DNA of 64,000 nt, from the NCBI GenBank assembly GCA_001899315.1, contig MOYA01000003.1, forward strand, positions 272,369 through 336,368, in the 5' to 3' direction. Shown here piece by piece: positions 16,754 through 20,953 of the stretch (positions are counted from its first letter, which is position 1; each line of letters begins with the position of its first letter). The stretch comes from Candidatus Obscuribacter phosphatis. GTDB taxonomy: Bacteria > Cyanobacteriota > Vampirovibrionia > Obscuribacterales > Obscuribacteraceae. The translations under genes were made by a program, and so were the position numbers. The notes beneath the pieces are model-generated. The model was not told the origin of the DNA. It saw nothing but the letters and a program-made list of their open reading frames with translations, and made no database searches.

Positions 16754-18556
16754 TTAGGCGACAGGCAACTTGAACCAAAATGTGCTGCCGGCGCCCTCCT
16801 GGCTTTCGACACCGATCTTGCCGCCATGCTGCTCGATGATGGTGCGACAAATGGCCAGACCCAAGCCTGTGCCACCTTTTCTGGTGGCATCGCTTTTACG
16901 CACTTGCTTGAAGCGCTCAAAGATTACCGCTTGCGCCTCAATAGGTATACCGCGGCCGCGATCGAGCACCTTAAAAATGGCTTGACTGCCCTGCCTGACC
17001 ACAGAAACAGTAATTGTTGAATAATCGGGAGAAAACTTGATGGCGTTGGAAAGCAGGTTGACCAGTACTTGAATAATTTTGTCGGCATCGGCTTTCACCG
17101 ATAAGGGGCTGCCTAAAACTTCGATTTCAATGCCGCGGCTATCGGCAAGACTGCGCACCGAGTTGACCGAAGCTTCCACCAGAGAAGCCACCTCGATATT
17201 CTGAATACTAAGTTTGACCGCCCCAGACTGCAGACGATCAAGGTCTAAGAGCTGTTGAATCAAACGCATCAAGCGCCCCACTTCCGCCTCCAGCAAGCTC
17301 ACTTTCTTGCTGCCGGCTTCGTTGAGGTCGCCATAGATACCATCGGCGACAAGCTCAAAAAAGGCTTGAATAGAATTGAGAGGAGTGCGCAAGTCATGGC
17401 TGACCATAGAGAGAAATTCTTGTTTCAAGCGCTCCACTTCGCGCCTTTGTGTGATATCAACCATGATGGCAAGCACTTTCTCCCCATCGGGCGTCTCGAT
17501 ATTGCGCAGACCCAATTCCACCGGCACAGAGTTGCCGTCTCGGCTGATGGCGTCAGTCTCACACCAAACTTTCTCATCTTCGCCGTCGGGCATTTTTACA
17601 GGCTTACCAGTGGCATCGGTGAGATAGACAAGATCACGTACATTTTTCTTGACCGGTGAGTCTTCATAGCCGAGCATATTAGAAAGAGCCAGGTTAGCCA
17701 GTTCTACTTCACCATCGCGCTTAAGTAAAAGCACACCGACCGGCAAACTTTCCAACAGCAAGACAAAGTTGGCTAAAATAGCTTGTTCTTTGCGCTTAGC
17801 GGCTTTCAGCTTAGAGACCATGTCTTTAAAGGCGCGGTCTACCTCAGAGAGTTCATCGCTGCCTGAAAGCTGAGTGAGGGGCAGATTGGCACCATGCCGC
17901 CTAATATTATCGAGCAAAACAGCCAATCTATTGGTGATGCCCCGGTTGAAATAAAGAGCTAGAAAGAGGGCAAGAGCGATATTAAAGACGATACCGCCCA
18001 CCAAAACACCCTTAATCAGTTCACGCTGCTTACGCTGAATAATCGGGCTCTCTCGCTCGATACGTTCTTCTACCGCCACCAAACCGTCGATGTCTCGCAC
18101 TATCGCCCTAAAGGTCGGCTTCACTTTCTTTATATAGGCAAGCGAAGCCACGGCTCCAGCTTCTTTCCACTCCACTCTGATTTTCTGCATTTCCACCCAA
18201 GTGTCGAACAAGCGCGACTTGACTTGATTCAACTCGTGTTGTTCTTCCGGGTGACCGGCGACCAATTTTTCTATATCGGCGAACTCTTGTCTAAACATGT
18301 CGCCAAAACTAGACTTACGCGGTGTACCGTCAGGCTCTTCCCCCGAAATCACTTCGGAAGAATCATAGGCAATAGCAGTAAGTAAAATCTGATGCACCCG
18401 GTTTAGATGCTTACTGAGATCGCGGGCATGGGCCTCACGGGCTCTTTCTTGCTCGGTTTGATCCAACAAATAATAGAGGGCGCCCACAAATACCAGCTCA
18501 AAGAAGAGCGGCACGGTAACCAATAGCAAGAGTTTGTGGGATATCTTCAAATTCAT
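16754..18556 (-). CDS. membrane sensor histidine kinase with PAS domain
   Basis: A 600-residue kinase. Transmembrane segments at about 8-30 and 182-203 flank a ~150-residue helical, four-helix-bundle-like sensor region. A HAMP-like linker (~204-256), a PAS domain (~262-370; 'LPVGVLLLKRDGEVELANLAL', ending 'VDITQRREVE'), the HisKA box 'SMVSHDLRTPLNS' with His387, and the ATPase with N box ('LLSNAIKFS'), 'DRGRGI' and 'KGGTGLGLAI' follow. The architecture is complete. It lies tail-to-tail with the response regulator at 16063, its probable partner. The signal is unknown; the periplasmic helical domain resembles chemoreceptor-type sensors. Confidence 0.93.
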   Translation of the reverse strand: MNLKISHKLLLLVTVPLFFELVFVGALYYLLDQTEQERAREAHARDLSKHLNRVHQILLTAIAYDSSEVISGEEPDGTPRKSSFGDMFRQEFADIEKLVAGHPEEQHELNQVKSRLFDTWVEMQKIRVEWKEAGAVASLAYIKKVKPTFRAIVRDIDGLVAVEERIERESPIIQRKQRELIKGVLVGGIVFNIALALFLALYFNRGITNRLAVLLDNIRRHGANLPLTQLSGSDELSEVDRAFKDMVSKLKAAKRKEQAILANFVLLLESLPVGVLLLKRDGEVELANLALSNMLGYEDSPVKKNVRDLVYLTDATGKPVKMPDGEDEKVWCETDAISRDGNSVPVELGLRNIETPDGEKVLAIMVDITQRREVERLKQEFLSMVSHDLRTPLNSIQAFFELVADGIYGDLNEAGSKKVSLLEAEVGRLMRLIQQLLDLDRLQSGAVKLSIQNIEVASLVEASVNSVRSLADSRGIEIEVLGSPLSVKADADKIIQVLVNLLSNAIKFSPDYSTITVSVVRQGSQAIFKVLDRGRGIPIEAQAVIFERFKQVRKSDATRKGGTGLGLAICRTIIEQHGGKIGVESQEGAGSTFWFKLPVA

Positions 18557-18566
18557 TTTCTAGATT

Positions 18567-18593
18567 ATTATATTAATCATACGCACTCGACAA
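18567..18593 (-). promoter_or_regulatory. candidate sigma70-type promoter of the histidine kinase gene
   Basis: Reading the minus strand, TTGTCG (18593-18588) is followed after 15 bases by a perfect TATAAT (18572-18567), about 10 bases before the ATG at 18556. The spacer is shorter than the usual 16-18. The position would give a very short or leaderless mRNA. Weak call. Confidence 0.3.
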
Positions 18594-18609
18594 TAAATAG
18601 GATCAACTC

Positions 18610-19317
18610 ATGCCGATTATGCCGAAGCAAACTGGGCGCAATTTTCTCAAGATACTCCTGCTTTTAGGTACATATACCCTATCGCTGCCTCTCCCTCTCC
18701 AGGCGCAAAGTACGGCTCAAATGAGCGAAGCCATGCAGCTTTATCAAAGCAGAAATTATAATCAGGCGCTGGAGCGCTTCAAAGCCATTACCCAGGCTAA
18801 TCCAAGACTAGCCATGGGGCACTATTATTTAGCTCTTTGTCATCAGGCTGTCGGTCATATAAGCCAGGCTCAGGGTGAATATCAACTGGTCATGCAACTG
18901 GACAGAGGACAACTTTATAACTATGCCGCAGCCGGTCTCAGACAACTAGGCAGCGCCCGCGGCATGAGCGGCAGTGGCAGCAATACATCTATAGTGAGCG
19001 GACAAAGCCTAGCCGCTGCACCTTCCGGCTCAGAGAGGCGGGAGAAAGCCGATAAAGTCATCTACTTCCACTTAGACGGCTGAGTGCCTTGCCAACAATT
19101 TGCGCCCGTGTTTGACGCAGCTAAAAGAAAAGTTTCAGGTATTAGGTTCGAAAGAGTGGGAGCTGAAGAAGACAGCTTCCAAGAACTTAGCCAACGTTAT
19201 GGAGTAAGAAGTTTTCCCCGCATTGCCATAGTCGATAGAAACGGCAATGCTCTTTATTGCGGCAGCCCGCCTCGAGAAGAAGAGTCACTGGTGCAGCTTG
19301 TCTCGCAGTATCGCTAA
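18610..19317 (+). CDS. secreted TPR-thioredoxin protein with in-frame TGA at the first CxxC position (candidate selenoprotein or broken gene)
   Basis: The frame is open from ATG 18610 to TAA 19317 except for one TGA at 19081-19083. The N-terminus has a signal peptide ('FLKILLLLGTYTLSLPLPLQAQS'), then two TPR repeats (about 38-110), a Ser/Gly linker and a full thioredoxin fold. That fold has beta strand 'KVIYFHLDG', then TGA, then 'VPCQQFAPVFDAA', the cis-Pro segment 'VRSFPRIAIVDRNG' and a C-terminal helix. TGA sits exactly where the first Cys of CxxC belongs, giving UxxC if read as selenocysteine. A weak hairpin (TGCG/CGCA, 19101-19104 with 19116-19119) follows at SECIS-like distance. Alternatives are a Cys-to-stop mutation or a sequencing error. 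No sel genes are in the window. Confidence 0.6.
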
Positions 19318-19345
19318 GACAAACAGCGCTATCAAAGTTGAGTTT

Positions 19346-20953
19346 TCAGTCGGCTGCTTTCAGCCTCAGGGTGACGGCAAGACCGCCCTGGGCACCATTT
19401 TCAATACTAACTTTGCCGCCGGAGGCTTCGGTGCAAGATTTGACTATGGCTAAACCAAGACCAACACCTCCCAAGCTGCGGCTGCGCGACGATTCGGGAC
19501 GATAAAAGGGCTCGGTAAGATAAGGCAGAGCCTCAGGACTGACCCCCGGTCCTTGATCTTGGATAGTGAGCAGGCCTTCTTCGCCGTTTCTTTTGTAGCT
19601 GACAAAAATAAGACTGTCAGAACCGGCATAACGCACAGCATTGCGCAAAATATTTGATATAGCCCGCTCGAGCAGATTGCTATCGCCGCAGACCAAGGCA
19701 TCGCTGCCAAAATCGAGACGCACCCTATCTTTTAGTGATAGACGTTGCACCACCGACTGCACCGACTGCAGCAAATCAAAGTTCTTCAGACTGGGAGTGT
19801 TGCCCTTCAGGCCAGCCTTAGAAAAGGCCAGCAACTCGCTGACCAATTGAGTCATTTCGGTTATTTCTTCGCGAATATCTGCCACTAGCTTGCGATCGTC
19901 ATCGCTTAAATTATCCGACTCGGAAAGCAGTTCTAGAGCCATCTGCAAACGCGCAATGGGAGTGCGCAATTCATGCGAAATATCGCCGAGGAAGCGTTTC
20001 TGCCCCGAGACATAGCCATCTAGACGAGTGGCCAGAACATTGACCCCCTCAGCCAAACGGCCTAACTCGTCTTTGTGCCGGGACTGCACCCGCACATCGA
20101 AATTGCCTTCGGCAATATGCTCGGTGGCGGCAGTAAGCTCACTGAGAGCGCGCACAAGCTTGTAGACCACTGGATACCAGAAAGCCAGCGAAAAGAGCAA
20201 GACACAAACGACAATAATGACCGGCGTCTTGAGGTCGAGCAAGAGACTGCTCTGCCATATATTATCGCTGGCAGCCAAAAGCACAGCCGGGCGAAAGCCC
20301 CTATCTCCAGCAAGGGGCATTCTGGTGCCGATCCAAAAGCGCCCGTCCAAACCACCGGCGATAATAAAGCGTCCGCTATTAAAGCCTTTCATGCCTCGCT
20401 CGGCAAAATCAGGCCCAGCAACGAAATCGGGGGCAAAATGAGGATGAGGACCAAAATTTGGGTTAGGTCCTAAATTAGGGTTAGGTCCAAAATTTGGGTT
20501 AGGTCCAAAACTTGGGTTAGGTCCAAAATCAGCATTTGGCGGAAACCCAGGTCCGACTAAAAAATCAGGCGGAAAATTACGCTTATGGAGGGGGAAGCTA
20601 TGAGGGGGCAAGAGCATTTTCACCCGGCTAAGCACTGCCGCCGGAGGCTCAGATTTGGCGCCGCAGACCTGTCCATCTTGATCAAAGACATAAAATTGCA
20701 CATTGTAGATACTGCCGAAATCTTTTAAGACTGTCTCCCATTGGTCGCTAGGTAAACCGCGTAGTCGCCCGGCCACGGCACTGGCAACGATGTCAACCCG
20801 CTCACCAAGCGGGCTGGCGATGAAAGTATCCCAACCAAAACCAAAGGCCGAATTGAAGAAGACAAAGCCCAGACCAAATAACAGCAAGACATAAATAACC
20901 AAAAGATTGAAAACTTTGAGATAAAGAGTGCCGGCCTTAAATGCGCTCTTCAT
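19346..20953 (-). CDS. CpxA-like sensor histidine kinase with Gly-Pro-Asn repeat in the sensor domain
   Basis: A 535-residue kinase. Transmembrane segments at about 15-35 and 243-262 bracket a ~205-residue extracytoplasmic domain. That domain contains five six-residue repeats of the FGPNPN type (about 143-173), encoded by an exact 18-base tandem repeat. HAMP (~263-315), the HisKA box 'LGDISHELRTPIARLQ' with His327, the N box 'ILRNAVRYA', 'DQGPGV' and 'GVGLGLAI' follow. It lies 2 bases downstream of its response regulator gene, giving an RR-HK operon. Envelope-stress sensing is likely by architecture; the ligand is unknown. Confidence 0.93.
   Translation of the reverse strand: MKSAFKAGTLYLKVFNLLVIYVLLLFGLGFVFFNSAFGFGWDTFIASPLGERVDIVASAVAGRLRGLPSDQWETVLKDFGSIYNVQFYVFDQDGQVCGAKSEPPAAVLSRVKMLLPPHSFPLHKRNFPPDFLVGPGFPPNADFGPNPSFGPNPNFGPNPNLGPNPNFGPHPHFAPDFVAGPDFAERGMKGFNSGRFIIAGGLDGRFWIGTRMPLAGDRGFRPAVLLAASDNIWQSSLLLDLKTPVIIVVCVLLFSLAFWYPVVYKLVRALSELTAATEHIAEGNFDVRVQSRHKDELGRLAEGVNVLATRLDGYVSGQKRFLGDISHELRTPIARLQMALELLSESDNLSDDDRKLVADIREEITEMTQLVSELLAFSKAGLKGNTPSLKNFDLLQSVQSVVQRLSLKDRVRLDFGSDALVCGDSNLLERAISNILRNAVRYAGSDSLIFVSYKRNGEEGLLTIQDQGPGVSPEALPYLTEPFYRPESSRSRSLGGVGLGLAIVKSCTEASGGKVSIENGAQGGLAVTLRLKAAD
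20448..20537. repeat. 18-bp tandem repeat, five copies, inside kinase gene
   Basis: Five adjacent 18-base units start at 20448, 20466, 20484, 20502 and 20520, the last divergent. The consensus on the plus strand is ggtccaaaatttgggtta. The unit is a multiple of three, so copy-number change keeps the frame and only lengthens or shortens the FGPNPN stretch of the kinase sensor domain. Confidence 0.9.

Follow-up and report, generated by a model that had tools for sequence, protein, structure and literature searches.

A TPR-thioredoxin gene of the Obscuribacterales whose in-frame UGA is very probably read as selenocysteine

A single TGA interrupts a plus-strand reading frame at positions 18610-19317 of the window, the whole 64-kb stretch of Candidatus Obscuribacter phosphatis DNA analysed here. 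We propose that this UGA is read as selenocysteine (Sec), via SelB and a SECIS element, at residue 158 of a putatively exported TPR-thioredoxin. Judged from sequence comparison, this is almost certainly the case, because 24 related genomes keep the codon, the same RNA hairpin nearly always follows it, and the relatives that do without the codon have a cysteine instead. The observations on which the proposal is based are conservation of the codon, interchange of Sec and Cys, the presence of the Sec machinery, a covarying stem-loop, purifying selection and a predicted fold.

Results

The TGA lies in the active site of a thioredoxin domain

The frame starts with an ATG at 18610, meets the TGA at 19081-19083 (residue 158) and then stays open up to a TAA at 19315-19317; the read-through product has 235 residues. 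The features are as follows.

18600..18603, plus strand: possible ribosome binding site, AGGA-like (aataaataGGATCAACTCATG), 5' of the ATG; read from the sequence, approximate
18610..19317, plus strand: candidate selenoprotein gene of 235 codons, UGA-Sec 158 among them, ended by a TAA
18610..18705, plus strand: putative N-terminal signal peptide (MPIMPKQTGRNFLKILLLLGTYTLSLPLPLQA), assigned by eye
18706..18972, plus strand: helical TPR region of five helices, about residues 30-120; TPR profiles below cut-off and AlphaFold2
18973..19044, plus strand: Ser/Gly/Ala low-complexity linker, about residues 121-145; pLDDT below 50 at 121-142
19045..19308, plus strand: thioredoxin domain, residues 146-233; PF00085 profile, AlphaFold2 and Foldseek
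19081..19083, plus strand: UGA, very probably read as selenocysteine, first UxxC position (U-V-P-C); alignment of 30 unselected homologues
19090..19092, plus strand: TGC, resolving cysteine C161 of the UxxC; invariant in the homologue alignment
19099..19122, plus strand: SECIS-like stem-loop, stem 19100-19106 with 19114-19120; comparison and covariance model
19107-19113, plus strand: apical loop CGUGUUU, starting 23 nt past the UGA

By eye, the N-terminus shows the features of a signal peptide, namely a basic n-region, a hydrophobic core and a small residue where cleavage would be expected. The region that follows matched the TPR_2, TPR_16 and TPR_19 profiles, each below its curated cut-off (23.5 bits against 27 for TPR_2, the remaining TPR models scoring lower), and the AlphaFold2 model, built with 26 homologues, folds it into five helices with a pLDDT of about 97. 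Residues 146-231 of the read-through product match Pfam Thioredoxin PF00085 (E 1.7e-8; 34.8 bits, cut-off 23.5). The model of this domain, with a pLDDT of about 97, arranges its strands and helices as thioredoxins do: strand 147-154, residue 158, then a helix (159-174) that starts directly after it. Foldseek and profile searches with the domain retrieved thioredoxins, including PDB thioredoxins, and PDI-type domains. Taken together, the PF00085 match, the modelled fold and the thioredoxin/PDI matches place the TGA where the CxxC motif has its attacking residue. The preliminary description had put the TGA at this first position, in a fold otherwise intact down to the cis-Pro of 'SFPRI'; the profile match, the model and the alignment confirm the position, and the proline (P203) is invariant among the homologues.

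In the window's genus the gene is flanked by two-component kinase genes, and in genus g5 its neighbors encode an M13 peptidase and a protein kinase; no redox partner shared among the neighbors was seen in these two genera.

Related genomes keep the codon and the frame behind it

Each of the 50 genomes that we searched from this bacterial family contained matches, some of them to the TPR part only. Thirty loci, chosen by score with the codon disregarded, were aligned. At the catalytic codon, 19 had TGA and 11 had a Cys codon (6 TGC and 5 TGT); no other codon occurred, and the sequence downstream was not decayed in these orthologues. With the loci added afterwards, the total came to 25 TGA genes in 24 of the 50 genomes. 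For the two closest orthologues, whose SECIS codons are unchanged between them, dN/dS was 0.136 before the TGA and 0.142 after it (about 0.14 on both sides), and on this comparison purifying selection acts on the frame downstream of the TGA, in agreement with the initial remark that this frame continues without decay. A single-sequence search of genome contigs for related loci returned the sister species only, and tblastn against plasmids gave no match.

An open frame on either side of a TGA is not in itself beyond chance, since a mechanical scan of the 64 kb found nine further TGAs preceded by 80 or more open codons and followed by 60 or more; the position of this TGA in the fold and its conservation in relatives are. 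The preliminary description had left the choice open between Sec and a very recent nonsense mutation. Chance open frames of this kind are all that would favor a loss-of-function mutation in the CxxC codon, that is, a pseudogene. The Sec alternative is upheld by the shared TGA, together with the covariation and the machinery described below, and the nonsense alternative was rejected, a TGA common to 25 genes and a constrained downstream frame making it extremely unlikely; the covarying stem-loop 3' of the codon and the complete Sec machinery also speak against it. Even less credible, to the point of being negligible, is a sequencing or assembly error at the codon. The window does derive from an assembled genome, but separately assembled relatives, including a MAG record (L050), carry the identical TGA, and an error was therefore rejected for the family.

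As the frame continues, some residue must be inserted, and one might think of another amino acid, such as Trp or Gly, through a reassigned code or near-cognate read-through. Yet TGA is the stop of 11 of the 41 long ORFs in the window and of six orthologues of the TPR-Trx gene itself, meaning that it is a normal stop in this genome apart from codon 158. Moreover, the homologues without TGA carry Cys alone, and the genome encodes SelA, SelB and a tRNA specific for Sec. This alternative is thus very unlikely, and selenocysteine is the reading that we retain.

A SECIS-like stem-loop follows the codon

Of the 25 TGA genes, 22 have a stem-loop at a fixed distance 3' of the UGA, its apical loop starting 23 nt after that codon in every one of them. 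Their consensus is UUYGCSCCCGUGUUUGRSGCRRY, with CCCGUGUUUG invariant. The loop is CGUGUUU in these 22 genes and CGUGU or GGUGU in the three divergent ones; these three more distant Sec genes have different stems, with GUGU kept at the same distance. Codons +8 to +10 are CCC GTG TTT in 19 of 19 aligned Sec genes and are variable in the Cys homologues, and other invariant residues, the cis-Pro for example, use mixed codons even within the Sec genes. Compensatory changes were found at two pairs of the helix 19100-19106/19114-19120 (UA to CG and GC to CG), confined to a few clades and thus reflecting few events. The covariation score of the helix was 0.231, against 0.108 for shuffles (500 made, none reaching the observed score) and no more than 0.052 when the partners were slid.

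In the window copy the hairpin has 5 bp and one additional C-G pair, with an A that is mismatched or bulged out. In isolation it is only weakly stable: the stem energy is -3.6 kcal/mol, compared with -10.5 for the GGC-type orthologues, whose upper stem has 7 bp. The published bSECIS model (PMC13188914, Fig. 2A) asks for 16-37 nt between the UGA and the apical loop, an upper stem of 4-16 bp and an MFE of at most -7.5 kcal/mol. The 23 nt spacing and the stem length lie within these ranges, and a loop with G at position 2 at this spacing fits the published geometry. The window copy misses the energy limit because an A faces a C; the covariation supports the same helix. Folded as a single 50-nt sequence (19081-19130), the region was no more stable than shuffles, and it is by comparison that a SECIS-like helix emerges there. 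The preliminary description, which considered the hairpin weak, was therefore right as to its energy in this copy, but it missed the comparative signal, which outweighs that weakness.

A search of Rfam over 18500-19500 at a loose threshold gave no match to a SECIS family and only matches at chance level. A covariance model of the stem-loop scored 40.1 bits at the gene and 14.8 at the next best place in the window. Run on the whole genome, it found this gene alone; the next scores, 15.7 and 13.6 bits, had E values above 2, so that no further selenoproteins are revealed there. When the codons of FAPVFDAT were resampled synonymously, the five pairs formed in 12% of the draws, and pairing within one gene thus proves little. 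The case for a SECIS-like stem-loop, comparative in nature, is built on conservation and covariation.

The genome encodes the selenocysteine machinery

The proposal made at the outset had been tied to the presence of selA, selB, selC and selD, and all four were found in the same genome: selA (430 bits with one model and 502 with another), selB (256.6 bits, above the cut-off; its product has a SelB-wing_3 winged helix domain), selC, a tRNA-Sec with anticodon TCA (73.7 bits), and selD (349 bits, without an in-frame TGA). The tRNA-Sec is on a different contig from the TPR-Trx gene in this genome; in two others it shares a contig with the TPR-Trx array, about 10-19 kb off (G039:C14:30266 and G041:C39:10554). 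As for the usual Sec clients, no in-frame TGA was present in the genome's own matches to FdhA-type, AhpC/TSA and SelD proteins.

Among family genomes at least 85% complete, selA was found in 18 of 18 with the TGA gene and in 11 of 17 without it (Fisher p 0.008, a test that counts related genomes as independent, phylogeny being uncorrected). Four genomes with the TGA gene lacked selA, all of them assemblies 66-84% complete; three of these had tRNA-Sec, and one (G037, 75% complete) had neither selA nor tRNA-Sec above the cut-offs. Conversely, five genomes more than 90% complete and without the TGA gene (G011, G017, G020, G024 and G029) had neither selA nor tRNA-Sec. Some family genomes, such as G013, G018, G019, G022 and G046-G049, have selA and no TGA TPR-Trx gene that we could see, and for this reason probably have other selenoproteins.

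Sec and Cys have been exchanged several times

On a tree of 46 proteins, six changes between Sec and Cys are required, no fewer than four of which fall on well-supported branches; Sec is found in two subfamilies. The second, distant subfamily (GYPT/GYPR-type: L053, L054 and L055) has TGA at the same codon, different stems and a GUGU loop at the same distance; Sec may have been gained there independently.

In genus g21, TPR-Trx genes of the Sec and the Cys type lie next to each other in tandem. A Sec gene stands beside one or two Cys paralogues at L056, L057, L060, L061 and L062 (genomes G037, G042, G039, G041 and G036, respectively). These Cys-type paralogues, direct tandem neighbors in five genomes, belong to the same family and share its architecture; they differ by TGC or TGT at the catalytic codon and by stem-loop nucleotides that are not conserved. 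In one genome, two adjacent TPR-Trx genes (L035 and L058, G001:C15:223952-225251) both have TGA at the CxxC codon and both have the same stem-loop.

We also searched 382 genomes of the class; among the matches listed, TGA forms occurred only in this Obscuribacterales family. In a sample of the phylum, selA was present in 8 of 386 genomes. Beyond the window's class, seven members of the phylum have selA (genomes G382, G386, G392, G398, G400, G410 and G416).

Discussion

Thioredoxin selenoproteins with UxxC are already established (PMC13188914, PMC9312934), as the preliminary description had noted. Like the window protein, the Trx selenoprotein (for example WP_010956703.1, PMC13188914) has a thioredoxin fold, a PF00085 match and Sec first in the CxxC, and its in-frame UGA has a SECIS directly downstream. 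The Trx of that inventory is, however, plain, with no mention of TPR, whereas in the window protein the Trx domain comes after a putative signal peptide, a helical TPR half and a linker, and the SECIS sequence is lineage-specific. SaoT (NF040730) and the HUIPC motif protein (NF047660) also have UxxC on a thioredoxin-like fold; neither matched the read-through protein in NCBIfam at E up to 1. TsoB, a rhodanese/DsbD fusion-like selenoprotein (NF045694), shows a weak profile similarity over the Trx part (E 0.043, 11.9 bits) but is far under its cut-off of 805 and has another architecture. The best profile and fold matches for the domain are PDI-type and TXNDC5/ERdj5 thioredoxin domains, whose disulfide exchange outside the cytosol is an analogous activity; these have Cys for Sec and no such TPR half, and the likeness is at domain level only.

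A secreted TPR-Trx selenoprotein was not found in the selenoprotein reviews and inventories searched (PMC13188914, PMC9312934), and neither 'TPR' nor 'tetratricopeptide' occurs in the 2026 inventory (PMC13188914), so calling such a protein unusual was fair. The literature searched contained no paper connecting selenocysteine with Obscuribacter or Vampirovibrion-, nor one connecting selenium with Obscuribacterales. According to surveys, the Cyanobacteria are without Sec decoding (PMC1794560, PMC9312934); a proteome count made later lists a single Sec protein for a Melainabacteria record (PMC9529120).

As to mechanism, we infer Sec incorporation, export, the redox direction, the substrate and the TPR role from the data above. 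SelB with Sec-tRNA(Sec) would bind the stem-loop in the coding sequence, the apical loop starting 23 nt past the UGA, and selenocysteine would be inserted at residue 158. The thioredoxin fold would thereby receive a U-x-x-C active site made up of U158 and C161. Following its putative export, the Trx domain would most likely work outside the cytoplasm as a thiol-disulfide oxidoreductase, in which the U158 selenolate attacks a substrate disulfide and C161 then resolves the mixed selenenylsulfide. The TPR half would probably serve as a docking site for a partner or for the substrate.

Selenium status might also select between two products, a secreted TPR-only protein of 157 residues with a function of its own and the full selenoprotein. 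Such a dual output is compatible with Sec insertion rather than exclusive of it, and PMC4513850 describes bacterial UGA recoding as partial (30-40%) and selenium-dependent. The UGA does come after a complete TPR module and linker, near the start of the Trx domain, but its place is set by the active site, and its position after the TPR is therefore no evidence of design. Nothing indicates that the short form is retained, and the Cys paralogues beside Sec copies yield the long form only. We consider a dual output unlikely, although less so than the alternatives to Sec discussed above.

Taking selenocysteine at residue 158 as the reading, we think that these putatively exported TPR-thioredoxins of Obscuribacterales probably form a new selenoprotein family, in which Sec and Cys have been switched several times, partly in tandem arrays, and SECIS nucleotides override codon choice. 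In each of the 24 genomes found, standard annotation would end the gene at the UGA and miss the half that carries the catalytic site. The finding adds an exported TPR-Trx architecture, export being putative, to the UxxC selenoproteins, and it puts Sec decoding in Obscuribacterales, relatives of the photosynthetic Cyanobacteria. Arrays that contain both Sec and Cys copies offer a natural experiment on the benefit of selenium to enzymes that are similar in other respects. If the family is indeed new, there would be an extracytoplasmic, selenium-dependent thiol-disulfide system in a non-photosynthetic branch next to the Cyanobacteria.
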